From Crenarchaeota archaeon 13_1_40CM_3_52_17 (GTDB taxonomy: Archaea; Thermoproteota; Bathyarchaeia; 40CM-2-53-6), in assembly GCA_001918745.1 (NCBI GenBank), contig MNGN01000036.1:1-47726 (forward strand): DNA of 47,726 nt. Direction: 5' to 3'. A model generated the notes under the pieces. The model worked only from the letters and a program-made list of their open reading frames with translations. It had not been told where the DNA came from and searched no databases. Each line of letters begins with the position of its first letter. The stretch's first letter is position 1. Positions 1,261 through 12,631 of the stretch are shown here, piece after piece. The position numbers and the translations under genes are program-made.

Positions 1261-1917
1261 TTACTTTCGTCGTTGAAATGCTCTCACAAGATTTTTGGTA
1301 CCTTTGACGCGCCAGAGTTGCAATCCGGCAATGATTAGCGCGCCTAGAGCCGCAATCATCTGCGAAATGATGAACCTAGTTGCGCCGTCAATCTGCGAGA
1401 CATTGAATGCCCAGTTGTAAAATGATTCCGTTGTTGGCTTGAACGCTTGGATCGATGCTACCGCATTCACGAACCAATCCGCCTCGACTATGTACGGCGC
1501 GAACAAGATAATCGTAAAGGGAGCAAGCACTAGGGCCGCTGTTCTAATCATCCTGAGAGGGTACAGGATTCTCCGAACTTGCTTGTCCGGTCCAGCCTTG
1601 ACGTAGGCGGTGCTTTCAAACACGTTCATCCAAAGGGTGACTACCACTAGAGCGTTTCCAAGAGTGAGAAACAGTGCGATAGAAATCGGCAGTGTCCATT
1701 TGCCTATGGGGATAGACACGGTCTTGTCAACGAAGCCAGTGTTCAACGTGTTGTAGAAGAAGAGAAGTTCTAAGCTTACGCAGATCGCGGCGAAAATGAT
1801 TGCTGGAATCCAGCCGCGGAGAACTTCCCAGCGCAAGAAGAGCCTATGGTATTGTTCGGACAATTCCCTTTCTCCGCGTTTCCTTTTGAACCGCTCTTGG
1901 CCTTGTTTAAAAGCCAA
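1261..1917 (-). CDS. Four-TM membrane protein, unknown
   Basis: 218 aa with a TTG start at 1917. A highly basic N-terminus (about residues 1-20) is followed by four hydrophobic segments at about 36-56, 77-100, 126-145 and 182-203. The N-terminus is predicted cytoplasmic by the positive-inside rule, and the C-terminus is again basic (KGTKNLVRAFQRRK). No catalytic motif is visible. It is transcribed divergently from the membrane protein and AAA/Lon pair beginning at 2056, with about 140 bp between the starts. I do not recognise a family. Confidence 0.65.
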   Translation of the reverse strand: MAFKQGQERFKRKRGERELSEQYHRLFLRWEVLRGWIPAIIFAAICVSLELLFFYNTLNTGFVDKTVSIPIGKWTLPISIALFLTLGNALVVVTLWMNVFESTAYVKAGPDKQVRRILYPLRMIRTAALVLAPFTIILFAPYIVEADWFVNAVASIQAFKPTTESFYNWAFNVSQIDGATRFIISQMIAALGALIIAGLQLWRVKGTKNLVRAFQRRK

Positions 1918-2055: not shown

Positions 2056-2913
2056 TTGAAAAAACGGATTGGTGTGCTAGCCGTCCTCATGATGACAGCA
2101 ATGGCCTTGCTAGTCTCCCCAGTCTACCCCGCCACAATGAATCCCCAAGAGAACGTGAACCTCTACACTGGTAACAAGCTCATAGTCCAGTCAAACCAGG
2201 CATCGATAAAATCGGTCGTCGTTCGAGGAAACCTTAGTGCAGCTACTCTCTCGAGTAACGCATATCCCTCCAAGAATTTCACGCTTACAACCAATTCAAC
2301 CCAGCTGTACACGGTCGACCTCTTGCTCTCATATCAATCCCCCTACACCTCAGAAATAGTCATCAGCGATCCCTATTCGGGATCAATGACCCAATACACG
2401 TCCTACTTTGTCTCCGGTGGAGACCTGAACGTCACAATATTCGCCTCGTTCCAAGCCGCTCCCTCAGCCGGGCCCACCGCACCTCTAGGTTGGTCATCTT
2501 TCTACGGTTGGGTGTCCCAGTTCGGAGGAGCGTTCCCCTTGTGGATCAAAATACTGTACACGGTTCTAGGGGCCCAGTTCGCCTTCGTTGGATACAGGTG
2601 GATAAAATTCGAAGATGAGCGCAGGAGGATAGAGGGACACCTGCCCCCGTTGGATCGGGGTAACAAGATCTATCTTTGGACCGAAGTTGTTTTCCGTACT
2701 CTTATCGCCGGTTTTGCCATCAGTCTAGCAATAATGATCGGCGAGGTCTTGGTACTCCTAATCGCTCAATACCTCCTCTTCGTCAACCTGAACCTAATAT
2801 CGCTCGTCGACTTCTTCTCCATATTCTTCGTGGCAGCCCTGGGAACGCTAGTCTATCTTACGAGAGAGGGCCTTGAGCGCATCTTCGATCTCAAACCAAT
2901 CATGGAGGACTAA
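2056..2913 (+). CDS. Secreted-domain membrane protein, partner of the AAA/Lon protein
   Basis: 285 aa from a TTG start. Residues 1-26 form a signal peptide (KKR, then a hydrophobic core ending near VYPA). They are followed by an extracytoplasmic, Ser/Thr/Asn-rich beta domain to about residue 140. Three hydrophobic segments follow at about 158-180, 212-240 and 250-272, and the end is charged and cytoplasmic. Only 3 bases separate its stop from the GTG of the next gene, so co-transcription is very likely. The layout suggests an outward sensor or substrate-capture domain tethered to the membrane, delivering to or anchoring the cytoplasmic protease. That role is inferred. No known family is recognised. 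Confidence 0.75.
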   Translation: MKKRIGVLAVLMMTAMALLVSPVYPATMNPQENVNLYTGNKLIVQSNQASIKSVVVRGNLSAATLSSNAYPSKNFTLTTNSTQLYTVDLLLSYQSPYTSEIVISDPYSGSMTQYTSYFVSGGDLNVTIFASFQAAPSAGPTAPLGWSSFYGWVSQFGGAFPLWIKILYTVLGAQFAFVGYRWIKFEDERRRIEGHLPPLDRGNKIYLWTEVVFRTLIAGFAISLAIMIGEVLVLLIAQYLLFVNLNLISLVDFFSIFFVAALGTLVYLTREGLERIFDLKPIMED

Positions 2914-2916
2914 TCT

Positions 2917-5718
2917 GTGGCATCCAAGATAAGAGTGGCATCAAACGATGATCAGCTGTCCGAATTCCTCTTCGGGTCCGTAAGACCATGGTGGGACAGA
3001 CAACCATGGTTTAGACGATTATTTGTTATTCCCCTCAAATCGGTCGACAAGTCCTACTCCAGATGGAGCAAAGCCAGAGTCTCCCCCAGAAGATTCCGGA
3101 AAATCCAAGAACGCTTAGACAGGGAATATCCACCGGATAAATTCTCGCCGGCAAACCTGATCGGCCGAGACAAAGAATTCAACACTCTGATGGATTCCTT
3201 CAGACTCCATGTGTTACGACACCCGATGCTCGCAAAATACTTCGGCCGAGACGAGCTTCCAAAAGCCATCTGTCTCGCCGGTGACAGCGGAACCGGGAAG
3301 ACGTTTCTGACCATGGTCACGTTGAGACAAATGCTCTTGGAAGGATACCGCGCGGGCGTGCTAGTCACACCTGTAATCCTGAAGGGATCGGATGTCTACT
3401 CCGAATTCTACGGAAAAAGCACCCGACAACTCGGCCGATTCCTAGACTACGCAAGCTCAGTCCCATCAGTCGTGTATATCGACGAGTTCCAGAGCTTCGG
3501 TAGAAAGGTCAGAGGAGAAACCGGTGCCGAGATCGAAGATACAAGACTCCAAGACGAGTTGAATCGCTGGCTCGACAAGATCGTTAGCGGAAAAACCCGG
3601 ACGCTCGTACTCGTCGCGACCAATGCTTACGAGAAGATCAGGGAGGACATACGACGACGGCTAACAAAGGTCAGCCTCAACGACGGAGTGACACGCGAAA
3701 TGCTTCTCGCTGTTGTGGAAGACTCGATAAAACGAGAGGCCTGGCTAGGCTTGAAGGCGGAAGATCTTCTCGATCTTATGGAGCGAGAGGTCACCATGAG
3801 ACGTAGAGCCTCCCTCACGCCCAGTGACATCCAAGAAATCTTCCGCGAAGTGAGAAAATCCAAAGAAGCTCCATTGCGAGAGAAATTCAGAGACAATCGC
3901 AACCTCTCCGCCAGCATCGAGAGACCCAAAATATCTGTCAAGATAGATGACTTTGTAATTGCTGCAAGGAACATCAAGCTCTACTCCGAACAAGAGAAAT
4001 CCCAAGAAGTGACAGACGCGGTCTACGTGAGTAAACCCAAAGTGAACAGAGAAGACGTTGGGGGCCTGCACGATGTTAAGAATAAGATTCTGAACCACAT
4101 CGCACTAGCCTTCAATCCGTCAATGGCCGAGCTAGGACACCAGTCCAACCCCAGGTTCTTCCTACTGGGCCCACCGGGCACCGGCAAGACACTCCTCGCC
4201 ATGGTAGCTGCAGCAGAGAACAACGTGGGATTCATCAAAGTCAGAGGTGGGGAACTCATGAGCGGAGCGAACTACATGGGTGACCCTGAGAAAAGAGTCA
4301 AAGACCTATTTTCGCTAGTGCGGCAGAAGAGCCCCTGCATATTGCTACTAGACGAGGCAGACGCGATCTTCTGGGGAGGAGACCCCTCGAGCAACAAGAT
4401 CCTTGCCCAAGTAAAGGCAGAACTGAGCGAGCTAAGACCGGAGGACAAGGTAGTTGTCATCGCTACTTCAAACAAAGAACAATTGATCGACCAAGCAACC
4501 CGGGACAGGTTCGAACCCAACATCTACTACGTCCACCCACCACAAAACGATAGCGAATGGAACGAGGTCGTCGGAATTCACATAAAGAAATTCAGCAGAT
4601 ACCTCCATCCAGAAGTGGATGCAGCTAAAATCACGAAGATGTTTCGGCGACAACGAATTCTCAGCCCAAGAGGCGTTGCGGAGACGGTATCGGAGGCTCA
4701 CCGTATGTGGGCATCGGAGGTCGCTGCGGCCCGCGAGGTCACGCAGGCCAAGGGCCAAGAGACGTCGCTCCAGGCTATCACTCTGAAGTATCAAGATGAT
4801 CTAGACCGTTTGGACCAGTTGCTGGCTATTTACAAGAACGAGGGAAGCTCACTCACCCCCGACCAAATCAACCAAGACAACTACAAGATACGACTCTTCC
4901 ACTTCCAACGGGCCATCTCAAGCCTCGAATCCTTAGAGGACAAAGAACACCGGGAAATCGCCGAGGCATTGATTCTGTCCCAAGAGATTCCAGGGGTAAC
5001 TTACGGTCTCTACACTAGCGATAGAGGCAGCGGTGGAATTCTGACCATACAATGCACCGTGAGGCCGATTAACCCTGGTGAGAGGCATGTGTCGGTTACT
5101 GGCCAAGCAAGTTCGATGATGATGGGACAGAGCTTCGTGCCGGATGATTCCGTCATTCAAAGTGCTACGAACGCTGTTGAGGCAGTAAGATCGTGGCTGT
5201 GGTTGAAGGCTCGGGCGAACCTATCCAGGTTCCATGTCGCGTTTCAGATCCGATCCATTCTTGAAGGCGCACCAGGCCAGGGAGTCTCGGGTCCAAGCGC
5301 GGGCTACGCGATGCTCAACGCACTAGTCTCCGAACTGTCAGGAATCCCGATTCCACAGTCCAGAGTGATGACCGGAACGATAGGACTGAAAATGGACATC
5401 GGACCTGTCGGCGGGCTAGGCGGAAGAGGAAGAGAAGCTGGGAAACTAGTTGGCATCCTGAAGGCCGAGAAGATCAAAGTCACGGACCTACTGGTGCCGG
5501 AGTCTAACTTCAAGAACGCTTCAGATGAGATGAAGATGATTCAGGATGAAGGAATCATCGTCCACCCCATTGCGAACGCTCCTGACGGATGGCCGATCCT
5601 ATTCTCGACGAACGCCGAAGACCTTGCGAAAAAGATTCGCGCATCTCTTATAGAGAGAGAGTCCGTAGTGGACATGGGACCCAGTTCGTCGCGACTCGTT
5701 GGAAGTACGAGTGCGTAA
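2917..5718 (+). CDS. Tandem AAA+ ATPase with C-terminal Lon-type protease domain
   Basis: 933 aa, GTG start. The first AAA+ module has Walker A GDSGTGKT (122-129) and Walker B VVYIDE (185-190). The second, of classical AAA type, has Walker A GPPGTGKT (418-425), Walker B ILLLDE (475-480) and an arginine-finger-like RDRFEP. After a helical linker (about 570-690), a Lon proteolytic domain carries the nucleophile Ser794 in GPSAG and a candidate catalytic Lys843 in REAGK. Together these form the Ser-Lys dyad of the Lon (S16) family. Usual archaeal LonB has one AAA+ module and its own membrane helices. This protein has two modules and no obvious TM segment, but sits 3 bp behind a gene for a TM protein. 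ATP-driven unfolding and proteolysis is well supported; substrates are unknown. Confidence 0.9.
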   Translation: MASKIRVASNDDQLSEFLFGSVRPWWDRQPWFRRLFVIPLKSVDKSYSRWSKARVSPRRFRKIQERLDREYPPDKFSPANLIGRDKEFNTLMDSFRLHVLRHPMLAKYFGRDELPKAICLAGDSGTGKTFLTMVTLRQMLLEGYRAGVLVTPVILKGSDVYSEFYGKSTRQLGRFLDYASSVPSVVYIDEFQSFGRKVRGETGAEIEDTRLQDELNRWLDKIVSGKTRTLVLVATNAYEKIREDIRRRLTKVSLNDGVTREMLLAVVEDSIKREAWLGLKAEDLLDLMEREVTMRRRASLTPSDIQEIFREVRKSKEAPLREKFRDNRNLSASIERPKISVKIDDFVIAARNIKLYSEQEKSQEVTDAVYVSKPKVNREDVGGLHDVKNKILNHIALAFNPSMAELGHQSNPRFFLLGPPGTGKTLLAMVAAAENNVGFIKVRGGELMSGANYMGDPEKRVKDLFSLVRQKSPCILLLDEADAIFWGGDPSSNKILAQVKAELSELRPEDKVVVIATSNKEQLIDQATRDRFEPNIYYVHPPQNDSEWNEVVGIHIKKFSRYLHPEVDAAKITKMFRRQRILSPRGVAETVSEAHRMWASEVAAAREVTQAKGQETSLQAITLKYQDDLDRLDQLLAIYKNEGSSLTPDQINQDNYKIRLFHFQRAISSLESLEDKEHREIAEALILSQEIPGVTYGLYTSDRGSGGILTIQCTVRPINPGERHVSVTGQASSMMMGQSFVPDDSVIQSATNAVEAVRSWLWLKARANLSRFHVAFQIRSILEGAPGQGVSGPSAGYAMLNALVSELSGIPIPQSRVMTGTIGLKMDIGPVGGLGGRGREAGKLVGILKAEKIKVTDLLVPESNFKNASDEMKMIQDEGIIVHPIANAPDGWPILFSTNAEDLAKKIRASLIERESVVDMGPSSSRLVGSTSA

Positions 5719-6081: not shown

Positions 6082-6672
6082 TCACTTATTTTCCTCGACG
6101 ATACGTAGGAAGTTCTTGAACAAGTTCACGCCTTTCAGTGTGTGAGATACTTCGGGGTGGAACTGAACTCCAAATATGGGTCTATTGTCATGTCGCATGG
6201 CTTCAATTGCACAGTTGTTTGATTTAGCAAGAACGTGAAAACCGTCGGGTGCCTTTACCACTTCATCGTTGTGAGACTCCCACGCGGTGAAACTTGGCCC
6301 TAATCCCTCAAGAATTCGTCCTTCGTCGATGACCGAAATTTCCACCGGACCAAACTCTGGTTTCCGGGCCGCTTCGGTGACTCCACCAAACGCCGTGGCA
6401 AGTAGCTGGTGCGTGACACAAATGCAAAGCATGGGCAGTTTGACTTGTCTGATTAGTTGGGCTGCATCCGCCAACTCGCCAGTCAATTGGTCGGGAGATC
6501 TTACGCTTTGCGGACCTCCCCCCATTACCAGCGCGTCAGGGTTCATCGATTCGAGCCGTTCGAGGGGGACAGATGGTGAAAGTAGTTTGGATTCTACTCC
6601 CAGTTCCTTGAGGTTTCGGACGATCAGGTGATTGTACTGTCCTTTGACGTATACGACCGGTATTGTCGTCAT
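6082..6672 (-). CDS. guaAA: GMP synthase subunit A (glutamine amidotransferase)
   Basis: 196 aa, ATG start. This class I glutamine amidotransferase subunit supplies ammonia from glutamine to subunit B for the XMP to GMP step. The triad is visible: Cys85 in CICVTHQ, His173 and Glu175 in FHPEV. The length matches stand-alone archaeal GuaA-A subunits. The nucleophile elbow is unusual: the family normally reads GIC-x-GHQ, but here both glycines are replaced (Cys83 and Thr87). It lies 3 bp behind the ATP pyrophosphatase subunit gene, the reverse of a fused bacterial GuaA, so a two-gene operon with paired subunits is clear. Confidence 0.93.
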   Translation of the reverse strand: MTTIPVVYVKGQYNHLIVRNLKELGVESKLLSPSVPLERLESMNPDALVMGGGPQSVRSPDQLTGELADAAQLIRQVKLPMLCICVTHQLLATAFGGVTEAARKPEFGPVEISVIDEGRILEGLGPSFTAWESHNDEVVKAPDGFHVLAKSNNCAIEAMRHDNRPIFGVQFHPEVSHTLKGVNLFKNFLRIVEENK

Positions 6673-6675
6673 GTC

Positions 6676-7896
6676 TTATTCGAACTCGATGGTTCCAGGT
6701 GGTTTGGGCGTAATGTCGTAGTAGACCCGGCTCACGTTCTCTTCCCTCAGGACCTGTTGGCCGATGTCTTTGAGGATTTTCCAAGGGACAGAAGATACTG
6801 CGGCTGTCATAAAATCCCTGGTTGAAACCGCCCTAACGAGAATGGACATGTTGCCTCCGCCTCTTCTTTCCTTTACAAGCAATGCAACCCTGGTGACCTC
6901 CGGGAATTGTTCCACAATTCCGGTTTGTAGCTGGCGAAGCCTATCTTGGAGCCACCCGTAGGTCTCGCGGGATTCTTCGGAGAGCTTGACGCCGGCCAGC
7001 AGCCCATAGCATCTTTGGTCCCCTTTCACCCCCGTCACCCTGTCTTCAAAGACCTCCACCTGAACCTCGGACCTTGGAAGCCCAAGTGCTTCACGTGCAG
7101 TTTCCGAGATTGCCTTGAGCGAGGAGTCCTTAGCGAACCTGTTCTCTATTACGGCTGCGAAGTACTGTTCGTAGTTGAAAGGGGCAAGGCTTGTCTCGAC
7201 TATCTTCGTTGCCTCTTTGAGCACGCGGATCTTCTCTTTGGTCACCTTCCCGATGCATCGGACGAGAAGTCCTGGTCCCGGGAACGGTTGCCTTTCCGAC
7301 AGTTCGCTTGGGAGGTTGAGGTGGCGTCCGAGCGTTCGCACTTGGTCTTTGTAGAGGTCAGCTAGAGGCTCGATGATCTTGAAACCATAGGTTGTCGCGG
7401 GATCGATTCCTACCTGTTCTAGAATGTTGTGCTGGGTTTTGATTCCGCCCTGCGTCTCAATCCAGTCCGGTGCGATCGTCCCTTGGAGGATGTACTCGCA
7501 GCCTTCCTTCTCGGCTTCTTCTTTGAGGACTTGGTAGAAGGTCTCTCTGAACTTCTTCCGTTTTTCCTCCGCTGTTTCTTCTCCTTTGACCGAGGCGAGG
7601 AATCGACCGCTGGCATGGACTAGACGTACCTTGAGTGAGGTTGGAGATATGGCTAGTCTTTCTTTGACCCGTTCAGGTTCGCCAGCTCGGAGAAAACCTG
7701 TATCTATCATTATTGGGAGTAGTTTGTCGCCGAGGGCTTCTCTGGCGACTAGAGTCGCGACGGTGCTATCGACGCCGCCGGATACAGCTGAGATGACTTT
7801 TTTGTCTTGGGCGAGTTCGCGGAGTCTTGCGGTCTCTTCGGACAAGAAGCTTGAAGGGTGGAACCCCTGAACCGCCACCGACAACCGTTTGCCCAT
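6676..7896 (-). CDS. guaAB: GMP synthase subunit B (ATP pyrophosphatase)
   Basis: 406 aa, ATG start. The N-terminal ATP-pyrophosphatase P-loop SGGVDS is at 39-44 and activates XMP by adenylation. The C-terminal dimerisation domain ends in KPPGTIEFE, the typical GuaA terminus. The usual archaeal B subunit is about 310 aa. This one is longer, mainly in the C-terminal domain after about residue 250, where extra segments separate the conserved blocks. It is first in the operon with the amidotransferase subunit and is transcribed away from the eL22-like gene. The function is firm; the meaning of the insertion is not. Confidence 0.93.
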   Translation of the reverse strand: MGKRLSVAVQGFHPSSFLSEETARLRELAQDKKVISAVSGGVDSTVATLVAREALGDKLLPIMIDTGFLRAGEPERVKERLAISPTSLKVRLVHASGRFLASVKGEETAEEKRKKFRETFYQVLKEEAEKEGCEYILQGTIAPDWIETQGGIKTQHNILEQVGIDPATTYGFKIIEPLADLYKDQVRTLGRHLNLPSELSERQPFPGPGLLVRCIGKVTKEKIRVLKEATKIVETSLAPFNYEQYFAAVIENRFAKDSSLKAISETAREALGLPRSEVQVEVFEDRVTGVKGDQRCYGLLAGVKLSEESRETYGWLQDRLRQLQTGIVEQFPEVTRVALLVKERRGGGNMSILVRAVSTRDFMTAAVSSVPWKILKDIGQQVLREENVSRVYYDITPKPPGTIEFE

Positions 7897-8476: not shown

Positions 8477-11400
8477 ATGGAGCAAGGCTTAACTCTTGAC
8501 CATAATAAGGACTGCTCGATAGAAGTGAGTTTGAGAATTCTCGAAAAACCAGGCATACTTGCATCCACATTCACTGTGCTGGCTGTTCTTGCAGTGTTCC
8601 AGTCTTTCCCACCTCGCGTGGAAGCTGCCTCAACAGGGATTGTCTGCACAGCACAGCCAGTGGACCTGTACTGCCGGCCTACAGCCCCTATTTTCAATGG
8701 GCCTCTCACTACGCCCGAAACCTTGCTTAGAGTGCCGATAGTTGTCAACAACACGGACGTCATAAACGGCTTCGACATCACGCTCAAGGTCAGTGATGTT
8801 ACGAAGCTCAAGCCGTTTGATGCGGACTTGACCGGAACCGTGATGCCTACTAGTGTTGTACTAGGAAAGTGCATCGGAGGGGTCCTGTTACAAGGATCCA
8901 CCTGTGTCTCAGCCACAGACACGCCGGACACCCTTCATCTCTCTCTTCTTGATACCGGGAATCCTCTGCCCGCGGGAACTACTGGTCTCTTGTTCACAGC
9001 AGTCTTCAGCATCACCGGAACAACTCTGGTTGGTGGCATAACCATCGGGTATCAAACTGGTTGTTTGAATTCGAGCGTCTCAGGCACAACCACATGCGTC
9101 TCCATGCCAAATGGGACTACTCAGCCGACTGCGGAAAGTGTGCAGAGCGGAGGCTTCGATAATAGCAATCTTGCTATCCTCCCGTACGTAACTATGAGTC
9201 CTGCAAAAAACAGCCTGGGCCAGTTTCTCCAGGGTCTTTCATCGTCTACAACCGATGTTCTCACTCTTACCTCGGTGAACCAGTTTAACACTACAACTAC
9301 TCCCACAGTATCCCTGGTCTCGACAGTTACTGGGAAATCCGCGTTACCGGTAGCCTCTCTATCACGGCCGCAGGTCGACTTTTCAAATCCGCCTGTCACG
9401 AGAACAACCTCGACCTTGACCGTCAATGTTTCCCGTACGACTGCAAGGGGGAATGACACTGTTACGGTCGGGGGGATCTTTACAACCCAGGACCCTAAAA
9501 CTTTCATCACATCCTCACTAGAAACAGTTGTCGCACTCCCTATGGGAGTTATCGATTTCGCGATGACCGCAAACCCCAATTCGTTGTCGATTAACGTATT
9601 GACAAACAACAGTGCTCAAGCAGTCATTACTGTTTCACCTGTCACCTTTGCCGGGCAAGTAGCTCTCGGCGTCCAGAAGGCTACTCTCCCGAGCGGGGTC
9701 ACCGCGGCATACAGCGCAGCGGCGATAACATTTCCAGGGACATCTACTCTGACAATAACAGCATCAACGAGCACGCCCCAAGGTACCTACCCGATCTCGC
9801 TTACTGCTAACAGCACCCTCAACGGCGTCACGAGAACTCACTTTACGGCGCTTATGTTGACAATCGGATCCTCGGAGTTCCAACTTACGGCCAACCCATC
9901 GAGTCTAATACTGACGACGGGCAGCACTGGATTCTCAATTGTCACTGTTACGGCCCTAAACGGCTTTGCTGGAATAGTCACTCTGTCAGCTACGACGGCG
10001 CCCTCGTCAGGATTGAAGTGTAATCTTGGCCCGATGACGATAGCGCTAAGCTTCACGGCGTCAGGAACAAGTACCGTGTCCTGCGCGGGGTCCACTGGAA
10101 CCTATGCTGTCGCCATAACAGGTAGTGGCGGTGGACAATCTCATCTTATCACACTCGAAGTAACGGTTCAGAGCAACAGTCAGGGGGCCGTAATCTCCGT
10201 CGACCCATACGCTACAATCGATCTTCCCAGAACATCAAAGACGATAACAATCACGGTTAACCTAACGAACGCTCCGGCAATCAATGGGTTTGCTGTCATT
10301 CTAGCTTACGATTACAAGGTTCTTCACGCGTCGAGTCTTAACTATTCGACAAACATCTTCGCACAGCTCCCCTATGCCCTATTCATCACACGGAACTGCT
10401 TAGATGGGATCCCGTTCGGCGGCTCCTCAAATTGTCAGGGAGAAGATGGTCCGGGAGTTACGTCGTTCGCCATGACTATCCTCGGACCTTACGAATTCAA
10501 TGGAACAGCAGGGCCATTATTCAGGCTAACTTTCGACGTCGCCAACACCACGGCACCCAATTTTAGTCAGATCCAGGTAATGCAAGCCCAAGTATTCAAC
10601 GGAACCCCAACACAGCTATCTACCACGGCCATCGATGGTTACTACACTAGCCTAGCCTGTAACGGAATACCATGTACTCCACCCAAGGTTGACTTCAAAT
10701 GGTCACCGGTGACACCTGAGCTCAATCGATTAGTGACATTCAGGGCCAACGCCTCCATCAACGGTTCGAGTGCAACGATAACAGATTATCTCTGGACTTG
10801 GGACGATGGCTTCAGCATTGAGACTGATAGCGGAACCACTAGCACCTCTACACACATTTTCTCTACTTTCGGCAATCACGAGGTCACCTTGAAGATTACC
10901 GAGAGCAACGGAGTGAAGTGGTCCAAGACAATCCCCGTTGTTGTCGCCACTCCGATCAACTTCGATGTATCTGCTCCTCAAGAAATCGTAATTAACTCTG
11001 GCCAACATCTCACCATCCCCAATTCCGTGATTGTCCAGAGCTTCAACGTGAGCGGCACTATCTCCCTCTTCGCTTCGACTCCACAGGGTCTGACGGTGTC
11101 ATTCAATCCTACCGTTTTGACCCTTACGCAATCATCAGTGGCATACTCGTCATTAGTGATTTTTGCATTATCTGCTATCCTTCCTGGTACCTATGTTTTC
11201 ACAATAACAGCATTTTCCGCAGCGGCAGGGGCTCGTAGCGTAATTGTCACAGTAATGGTACCCCCGGGGGACTTCTCCTTGACCATTGGGTCAGGTGGGA
11301 TCACAATGAATCCAGGGTCAAACGCAACTGTCTTTGTTAGCCTCTTCACCACCAACATCAATGCAACCGTCAACCTCTCCCTCCAATTTTCGAATCCGGC

Positions 11401-12631
11401 CTTCAGCGTTCTGTTCTCACCCTCCAGCCTAGCAATTTTCCCGAACAGATCATTCTCATCACTCATGCTCATAAGGGCGAACCCAGGGATTCAACCCGGC
11501 AATTACGTTCTGAACGTTCTCGCTACCACGAGCTCGATCACTCGCGTCGCCTTTGTGTTTGTAACAATTACGAGTCCTCCAGATTTCACTATTCAGACTT
11601 TCCCGCTCACAATTCAGATACTCGACGGCTCCCCGGGATTCCTCGAAGCCAATGCACAGCGATCCCTCTGTTGTCCTTTCCCGCAACCCCCTCTCAACGT
11701 CACTCTTAGCGTTGCGATCTTCCCATTAGCTCCCAACGGTCCAATAGTTTCTCTTCAAGACAATTTTCTGATCGTTTACGGGAGCAGTTATACCACAGTG
11801 CGGGTTCTGACGAGACCGAATACTCAGACCGGCAATTACACCCTTACCGTGACCGGTAGAACGGACTCGTTCGTCCATTCATCGACCTCGACTGTTATGG
11901 TCCTACCTCCCCCTGTACTAAAGACAACTCCATCCAGCGGCTCGGTTGGAACAAAAGTCGACGTCAGGGGTTTAGGGTTTGTCTTCTTTTCCCCTCCTGG
12001 ATATTACCCTCAAACTCATACTTTCTGGGTGACCTTCGACGACCAGTTCCTAGGCGAGGCGTTCACGTCAAACCGCTCGTTCGTTTTCACATTCAATGTC
12101 CCGGACGCGGAGCCAGGACCACATCTCATCAAAGCCCTCGACATCCTTACAGGAGTTAATGCGACAGCTCCGTTCCAGGTCCTCGCCGAGCCCGCACCGC
12201 TAACTGTCTCGATCGACACTGGCACGATATACTTCCCCGGAGACACCGCAACAGTTTATGTTCTCATCTCCCAGAACGGATTAGCTGTCCAGGCTCCCGG
12301 CGTTCAGCTGCATTTGACACTGATCAAGCCTGACGGATCAAACGTCTCACTCAATGCCAAGGGACTCCCCGGAGGCCTCTTGATGGCCGTCTACGCTGTT
12401 CCGACAACTGGTCCGATCGGCACCTACGCGCTCTTGGCAACCGCACAAGGTCCCAACTCCGCGCACGGCACCGCGCTGCATACTTTTGAGGTAAAACCAT
12501 CGTGGTTATCCTCGAAGAGTCAAGCCTTGGTCTCGGCTACTGGGGCGATCGGCGCAGTAGGGCTCGTCGCCTTTGCCTGGAAGAAGGGATATCTCAGGCG
12601 TAAACAAGGCGACCAGGAGATATTCGCCTAG
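8477..12631 (+). CDS. Large modular surface protein (cohesin-like, Ig-like, PKD, IPT/TIG) with C-terminal anchor
   Basis: 1384 aa. A hydrophobic export signal at about residues 27-41 ends near EAAS (50-52), so a shorter start inside the first 20 codons is possible. Two cohesin-like beta-sandwiches at about 55-200 and 565-735 share N-terminal patterns (VNN or LTN, then INGF). Several Ig-like Thr/Ser-rich repeats follow. A PKD-like domain at about 735-825 has the WTWDDG and HIFSTFGNHEVTL signatures. An IPT/TIG-like block starts near 1147 (TPSSGSVGTKVDVRG), and an MG2-like domain precedes the end. A C-terminal membrane helix (about 1348-1368) with a basic tail anchors it. Probable cell-surface adhesion or glycan-binding protein; ligand unknown. 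It is isolated, with gaps on both sides. Confidence 0.85.
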   Translation: MEQGLTLDHNKDCSIEVSLRILEKPGILASTFTVLAVLAVFQSFPPRVEAASTGIVCTAQPVDLYCRPTAPIFNGPLTTPETLLRVPIVVNNTDVINGFDITLKVSDVTKLKPFDADLTGTVMPTSVVLGKCIGGVLLQGSTCVSATDTPDTLHLSLLDTGNPLPAGTTGLLFTAVFSITGTTLVGGITIGYQTGCLNSSVSGTTTCVSMPNGTTQPTAESVQSGGFDNSNLAILPYVTMSPAKNSLGQFLQGLSSSTTDVLTLTSVNQFNTTTTPTVSLVSTVTGKSALPVASLSRPQVDFSNPPVTRTTSTLTVNVSRTTARGNDTVTVGGIFTTQDPKTFITSSLETVVALPMGVIDFAMTANPNSLSINVLTNNSAQAVITVSPVTFAGQVALGVQKATLPSGVTAAYSAAAITFPGTSTLTITASTSTPQGTYPISLTANSTLNGVTRTHFTALMLTIGSSEFQLTANPSSLILTTGSTGFSIVTVTALNGFAGIVTLSATTAPSSGLKCNLGPMTIALSFTASGTSTVSCAGSTGTYAVAITGSGGGQSHLITLEVTVQSNSQGAVISVDPYATIDLPRTSKTITITVNLTNAPAINGFAVILAYDYKVLHASSLNYSTNIFAQLPYALFITRNCLDGIPFGGSSNCQGEDGPGVTSFAMTILGPYEFNGTAGPLFRLTFDVANTTAPNFSQIQVMQAQVFNGTPTQLSTTAIDGYYTSLACNGIPCTPPKVDFKWSPVTPELNRLVTFRANASINGSSATITDYLWTWDDGFSIETDSGTTSTSTHIFSTFGNHEVTLKITESNGVKWSKTIPVVVATPINFDVSAPQEIVINSGQHLTIPNSVIVQSFNVSGTISLFASTPQGLTVSFNPTVLTLTQSSVAYSSLVIFALSAILPGTYVFTITAFSAAAGARSVIVTVMVPPGDFSLTIGSGGITMNPGSNATVFVSLFTTNINATVNLSLQFSNPAFSVLFSPSSLAIFPNRSFSSLMLIRANPGIQPGNYVLNVLATTSSITRVAFVFVTITSPPDFTIQTFPLTIQILDGSPGFLEANAQRSLCCPFPQPPLNVTLSVAIFPLAPNGPIVSLQDNFLIVYGSSYTTVRVLTRPNTQTGNYTLTVTGRTDSFVHSSTSTVMVLPPPVLKTTPSSGSVGTKVDVRGLGFVFFSPPGYYPQTHTFWVTFDDQFLGEAFTSNRSFVFTFNVPDAEPGPHLIKALDILTGVNATAPFQVLAEPAPLTVSIDTGTIYFPGDTATVYVLISQNGLAVQAPGVQLHLTLIKPDGSNVSLNAKGLPGGLLMAVYAVPTTGPIGTYALLATAQGPNSAHGTALHTFEVKPSWLSSKSQALVSATGAIGAVGLVAFAWKKGYLRRKQGDQEIFA

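Follow-up and report, generated by a model that had tools for sequence, protein, structure and literature searches.

A tandem-AAA Lon protein and its membrane partner as a candidate two-chain membrane protease in Bathyarchaeia

In this study, we analyzed a 47,726-nucleotide stretch of DNA from Crenarchaeota archaeon 13_1_40CM_3_52_17 (class Bathyarchaeia, phylum Thermoproteota; GenBank contig MNGN01000036.1; hereafter the window), in which a gene for a membrane protein (the partner) lies directly ahead of a gene for a protein that joins two AAA+ modules to a Lon peptidase domain (the fused protein). As judged from their sequences and those of their relatives, the two genes probably encode one two-chain, ATP-dependent membrane AAA+ protease that is built differently from FtsH and LonB. 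An earlier note on the window, made from its letters alone, had proposed a split membrane protease as an alternative to LonB or FtsH; this proposal is supported by the adjacency of the two genes across genomes, by the non-overlap of the fused protein with LonB-like proteins and by the lack of an M41 hit in the window's genome. Loci, genomes, contigs and families are referred to by our own handles beginning with L, G, C and f.

Domain architecture and peptidase active site of the fused protein

Pfam placed the AAA family PF00004 in two stretches of the fused protein (152 bits) and Lon_C (PF05362) at residues 688-877, the latter with 46.5 bits against a cut-off of 21.1, which identifies an S16 domain. 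Both families were present (E <= 0.001) in all 25 members of a diverse alignment. These matches confirm the two AAA+ modules and the Lon domain that the earlier note had read in a single chain of 933 residues, the modules being Cdc48-like. When the PDB was searched with the family profile, the 60 best hits were Cdc48/VCP, AFG2, NVL, Rix7 and one 'vesicle-fusing ATPase'. The top NCBIfam model was CDC48 (TIGR01243), matched colinearly in one stretch (residues 99-575 on model positions 197-652); with 148 bits against a cut-off of 802.65, and with no CDC48_N domain among the 25 Pfam families listed out of 28 or in the 10 families at E <= 0.001, Cdc48 itself was rejected. FtsH was rejected because no M41 domain was found in the fused protein at E <= 0.001, and LonA because TIGR00763 gave 61.7 bits against a cut-off of 608, its best stretch being the peptidase domain (686-876).

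Conservation was counted in 56 full-length rows from 54 different genomes. The first module (D1; Walker sets G122-K128 and D189-E190) keeps Lys128, Asp189, Glu190, Tyr165-Gly166 and Arg246-248 in every row, and the second (D2; G418-T425 and D479-E480) likewise keeps Lys424, Asp479, Glu480, Asn519 and Arg531, with an aromatic residue 1 or 2 positions ahead of Gly455 in each D2 pore loop. As identity to the window protein ranges from 29 to 98% across the aligned sets, the invariance of these key residues is not due to chance, and the conservation of motifs in both modules suggests that both motors are active. A domain tree built from 44 rows placed D2 next to the D2 domains of Cdc48 (support 82/98); D1 formed a long separate branch, and the tree program warned of long branches meeting. 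We therefore place D2 beside Cdc48 D2 only loosely and assign the clade of D1 from PF00004 alone. An HCLR-type AAA, as in Lon motors, was rejected on the two PF00004 matches, the PDB kin listed above and the position of D2 beside Cdc48 D2. Ahead of D1, an N-terminal region with conserved tryptophans is proposed as a docking element.

Within the peptidase domain, Ser794, Arg837 and Lys843 each fill their alignment columns in 56/56 rows. A profile search of this domain against the PDB returned Lon structures, the best being that of A. fulgidus (1z0e, E 1.9e-19), in whose alignment K843 falls on the Lys opening the 'Kieaa' helix. We take K552 to be the catalytic Lys of A. fulgidus Lon. Relative to 1z0e, our proteins contain a 4-residue insertion with an invariant Arg-Gly, which is 2 residues longer (6) in the window's family, and the distance from the Ser to Lys843 is 48 residues in the window's family and 46 elsewhere (55/56 rows, L097 being unreadable by motif search). 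According to PMC9569914, the catalytic Ser and Lys of LonA and LonB lie exactly 42 residues apart, and it is an Arg that our motif search found at Ser+42 (55/56 rows, L097 again unreadable). The Ser-Lys dyad read earlier is thus borne out in part: a Ser and a Lys align with those of Lon by profile, but the Lys stands at 46 or 48 and an Arg at the canonical 42. An invariant R837 where Lons have Lys under this rule could mean that the Lon domain is dead as a peptidase and that the protein acts as a membrane-tethered Cdc48-like segregase or chaperone. We regard this as quite improbable, because S794 and K843 are kept in 56/56 rows, where loss would be expected in a pseudo-enzyme, and because K843 is aligned by profile with the Lys of the 1z0e helix. 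Within the proposed protease, Lys843 is favoured over Arg837 as the putative catalytic residue.

Linkage to the membrane partner

Using a profile built from eight members, we found the fused protein in 40 of the 256 genomes of the class and in 43 of a sample of 398 genomes of the phylum, 67 different genomes together. In the phylum sample, 13 of 56 hits had been removed as D2-only Cdc48-like proteins (model positions 294-634; open reading frames, ORFs, of 692-762 amino acids). The fused architecture thus represents a real family, which outside the class occurs in families f30, f32, f41, f43, f47, f49, f54 and f56. Named relatives of the fused protein (up to 98% identical) come from metagenome-assembled genomes, mostly titled Candidatus Bathyarchaeota.

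In the window, the partner and protease ORFs have the boundaries and the 3-bp spacing that had been reported for them. A transmembrane (TM) partner gene was adjacent in 66/66 genomes with a readable 5' side. G007, whose 5' side was unreadable, was left out of this count, and the genome of L047, where the ORF is only the 3' part of a split gene, was counted via L139; in G002 just the 3' part of the partner is present, at a contig start, and in G180 the partner frame is short (109 amino acids), with a stop inside the profile match. Except in eight genomes of f32, the partner gene lies upstream and points the same way as the protease gene, and the longest ORFs of the two frequently overlap, by 8-97 nt. 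In those eight (L091-L093, L114-L118), it lies on the other strand, head-to-head, 29-105 bp from the protease gene. The expectation that the membrane gene always precedes the protease gene was therefore right as to adjacency but not as to order, adjacency being kept despite inversion in these eight. As a rough control, ORFs with at least 2 TM segments and fewer than 430 amino acids accounted for 3/51 nearest downstream ORFs and 71/402 other ORFs; the partner search was somewhat more lenient than this control, since overlaps and up to 450 nt were allowed.

Of the 40 class genomes that encode the fused protein, 39 were hit by partner profiles, the exception being cut by a contig end; of the 216 that lack it, 1 was hit, a marginal match over about 100 residues (G166, E 1.5e-5). 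The first profile matched 21 of the 256 genomes, each of which encodes the fused protein; of the 19 matched by the second, 18 carry it and G166 does not. The 66/66 adjacency, its survival of inversion and this near-exclusive co-occurrence leave almost no room for genes that are neighbours by chance or through shared regulation alone, an explanation that we reject.

The layout of the partner, read from the hydropathy of close relatives and a low-confidence model, comprises a signal helix followed by about 9 strands and then three long helices; the signal peptide, ectodomain and three TM helices described earlier are visible in this way, with TM1 borderline by hydropathy. Among 56 partners (excluding L108, L109 and the cut, shortened or over-long L096, L126, L103, L104 and L082), the ectodomains hold 201 N-x-S/T sequons versus 93 in shuffles (0/500 shuffles reach 201), and lysine and arginine make up 19% of the TM1-TM2 loop versus 6.5% of the ectodomain. 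The sequon excess and the positive-inside bias point to an ectodomain outside and a basic TM1-TM2 loop inside. Pfam returned no family above cut-off for the window partner and three others, and PDB profile searches with both partner types returned nothing significant (best E 0.14 and 0.19). One of these types has three TMs and an acidic C-terminal tail, the other two TMs. In a protease tree of 54 rows, made by a quick method and omitting L108 and L109 because each is the second locus of a genome already represented, one branch separates the partner types, labelled by tail (SH-aLRT, the Shimodaira-Hasegawa-like approximate likelihood ratio test, 100). The window's own family, f1, has a very long branch in this tree (3.53) and may evolve fast, and L097 (G221), the sole f9 genome with the fused protein, joins out-of-class members (support 89), a possible case of transfer or misbinning.

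The window partner shares 12-20% identity with the three-TM partners of other families, compared with 37-39% for the matching proteases. Such fast divergence in a pair that stays linked, together with the existence of two partner types, would suit a partner that is a dedicated substrate, sensor or inhibitor, which the cytosolic motor degrades, or by which it is gated, when stress is sensed outside. We consider this unlikely, if worth bearing in mind: so strict a linkage would be unusual for a mere substrate, and two f5 genomes retain just the TM part of the partner (124 and 134 amino acids), which fits an anchor better than a sensor. We prefer a partner that would anchor the motor. In the f5 loci L103 and L104, whose partner is without an ectodomain, the gene after next encodes a 6-TM protein with HExxH, by eye, perhaps a site-2 type protease. 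Extra partner copies were observed in tandem with the first (G190:C1:113852-114535) and on another contig (G183:C1:32924-33631).

LonB-like proteins and the genomic context

LonB-like proteins were called by a TIGR00764 search at E <= 1e-60; none reaches the cut-off of this model, so that they are LonB-like rather than certified LonB. They occur in 78 of the 256 class genomes and in 0 of the 40 with the fused protein, where 12.2 would be expected if the two were independent (Fisher 1.2e-7, a value that ignores the relatedness within families). In the phylum sample, 28/398 genomes have a LonB-like protein, 43/398 the fused protein, 0 both and 327 neither. The earlier note had considered a separate LonB beside the fused protein and a LonB with the same partner; at this threshold, the former was absent from all genomes with the fused protein (0/40 in the class, 0/43 in the phylum sample), and no LonB-like class genome gave a partner hit.

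In the four LonB-like proteins read for TMs (L110-L113), two strong TM segments lie after Walker A and ahead of the peptidase domain, the arrangement of LonB, and two of the four have a third, weak one. For the fused proteins, the same test for inserted TMs revealed no segment by hydropathy in three members of the window's family (L107-L109) and one segment each in L091, L092, L098, L100, L105 and L090, which in L091 and L092 (791-810) is the peptidase helix with the Ser. LonB was rejected on its TIGR00764 score (28.3 bits against 516.6), on Pro793, which precedes the catalytic Ser in 56/56 rows with no Asp there, and on the lack of TM helices inserted in the AAA+ module, unlike in L110-L113. 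PMC9569914 describes LonB as having one AAA+ module, into which its own membrane anchor is inserted, and archaeal LonB as having an Asp before the Ser; unlike this rule, L110-L113 have a Pro ahead of the catalytic Ser (DGPSAG).

At E <= 1e-40, the TIGR00764 search also matches the window's genome, via a LonC-like protein (168.7 bits) that has no TM segments by hydropathy. This genome, of which the window is contig C63, comprises 66 contigs and 1.78 Mb. It yielded three 20S proteasome-family hits, and no M41 FtsH domain was found in it at 80% completeness. Its Cdc48 (L102:6729-10040, G000:C42; 1104 amino acids) matches Intein_splicing and LAGLIDADG_3 in Pfam, and the intein sits, with the insertion point placed by eye, within the D1 Walker A motif.

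The features of the locus are collected in Table 1. A promoter and terminator scan, built for bacterial sites, performed no better than shuffles. Upstream of the partner, on the opposite strand, lies the gene of a hydrophobic protein (window 1261-1917, minus strand), the equivalent place of which is occupied by four-TM-segment ORFs in L107, L108 and L109; that of L107 has no Pfam match. Directly downstream, GMP synthetase is encoded as two genes for the amidotransferase and synthetase subunits (window 6082-7896, minus strand). A 1384-amino-acid protein (window 8477-12631, plus strand) has a PKD domain above cut-off and an MG2 match below cut-off, and a hydrophobic stretch near its C-terminus, by eye, suggests a surface protein. 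Neighbours other than the partner vary between families (15 loci listed).

Table 1 Features of the two-gene locus, in window positions
Feature	Position	Strand	Basis
Membrane partner gene, 285 amino acids, TTG start	2056..2913	+	ORF
Predicted signal peptide / first hydrophobic helix of partner (approximate)	2056..2133	+	Sequence; helix 2-19 in low-confidence model
Predicted beta-rich extracytoplasmic domain of partner (approximate)	2134..2529	+	Low-confidence model strands; sequons
Predicted TM1, basic cytosolic loop, TM2 and TM3 of partner (approximate)	2539..2865	+	Hydropathy of relatives; lysine/arginine bias
Conserved C-terminal tail ...DLKPIMED, predicted cytosolic	2866..2910	+	Alignments
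Tandem-AAA Lon protease gene, 933 amino acids, GTG start	2917..5718	+	ORF; Pfam and NCBIfam matches
N-terminal region with conserved W25-W26 and W50	2917..3153	+	Alignments
First AAA+ module (D1): Walker A, pore Tyr165-Gly166, DE189-190, RRR246-248	3154..3852	+	Residues 56/56
Second AAA+ module (D2), Cdc48-D2-like: Walker A, pore loop, DE479-480, N519, R531	4030..4752	+	Pfam; NCBIfam; PDB profile search; alignment; domain tree
Lon (S16) peptidase domain	4972..5556	+	PF05362; PDB Lon domains
Ser794, expected nucleophile, in VSGPSAG	5296..5298	+	56/56
Arg837, invariant, 42 residues past Ser (canonical Lys place)	5425..5427	+	Alignment; spacing rule of PMC9569914
Lys843, invariant, profile-aligned Lys	5443..5445	+	Alignment; profile match to 1z0e

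Proposed mechanism and comparison with known systems

Starting from the domains found, the invariant residues, the coupling of the two genes, the predicted topology and the LonB-like non-overlap, our proposed mechanism has the large chain forming a hexamer of two stacked classic-AAA rings (D1 and D2), whose aromatic pore loops would pull the substrate and pass it on to the Lon peptidase domains, likewise arranged as a ring. The partner would be embedded in the membrane, its beta domain facing out and its basic loop facing in, and would tether the motor to the cytosolic side; it may also relay signals or substrates from outside. Such a machine may extract and degrade membrane proteins, covering the role of LonB or FtsH where these are missing.

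Several points weigh against this proposal. The Ser-Lys spacing departs from the Lon rule given in PMC9569914, and the sensor-1 Asn of D1 is present in only 44/56 rows (Thr in 9, Ser in 3). AlphaFold models were too poor for use, both for the large chain, aligned in 16 rows with 77-98% identity to the first (predicted local distance difference test, pLDDT, 46), and for the partner, aligned in 10 rows with 50-92% identity (pLDDT 52). Profile comparison of the ectodomains of the two partner types gives only a weak match (probability 52%), so that the partners may not all share one descent. The exclusion of LonB-like proteins follows family lines and hence reflects few independent events, and since 327 of the 398 sampled genomes have neither protein, a membrane Lon is not obligatory in the phylum and a simple account of a needed replacement is weakened.

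No description of a two-AAA plus Lon architecture was found by title or start of abstract, a search with most subscription papers and all preprints outside its scope. The Lon architecture table of a 2008 survey (PMC2605481), in its accessible part, lists LON-AAA-Lon_C, Sigma54_activat-AAA-Lon_C and others and no AAA-AAA-Lon_C, and in the accessible text of a Cdc48-family paper (PMC5070193) the whole word Lon occurs 0 times. A soluble archaeal Lon-like protein has been reported (PMC4864567), so that the count of two proteases for archaea is already loose. A 2020 review (PMC7226402) places the Lon family in the HCLR clade and the classic AAA motors with the proteasome, FtsH and Cdc48; the fused protein crosses this line, with a classic-AAA tandem and a Lon peptidase in one chain and the membrane part split off. 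On balance, we lean towards an undescribed class in which a Cdc48-type double-ring motor with a Lon peptidase would be anchored in trans by an outside-facing membrane protein and would use a shifted active site (Arg at the Lys place, Lys 4 or 6 residues later), a further archaeal ATP-dependent protease beside the proteasome and LonB that would replace LonB in several lineages of the phylum. If true, this would add a protease to the archaeal set by a separate route to membrane binding. Mechanistic studies would then have a natural protease with two motors in one chain, and lineages that lack LonB would have a candidate for the quality control of their membrane proteins.

Compared with known systems, the fused protein resembles archaeal LonB (the membrane Lon, MEROPS S16.005) in joining a cytosolic AAA+ motor, here with a predicted membrane location, to a Lon peptidase, but it has two classic-AAA modules, TMs in a separate protein and a Pro before the Ser. 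With FtsH and the m-AAA and i-AAA proteases it shares a classic-clade AAA with a peptidase, and an outside domain and TMs placed N-terminal of the motor, here in trans, whereas FtsH is a single chain throughout and combines one AAA module with an M41 zinc peptidase. Cdc48/VAT, which works with the 20S proteasome, likewise has tandem classic AAA modules, and D2 stands beside its D2 in the tree; Cdc48 has an N domain and no peptidase, and D1 of the fused protein is very divergent. LonC shares the Lon peptidase domain but has one AAA_32 module, and the copy in the window's genome is the TM-free one mentioned above. ClpAP and ClpCP are similar in that two AAA modules feed a serine peptidase; they are not known to have a membrane partner. 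They differ in their separate Clp peptidase subunit and in a second module of the HCLR clade (PMC7226402). Collectively, our best reading of these comparisons is that the fused system would work like FtsH or LonB but falls within the definition of neither.

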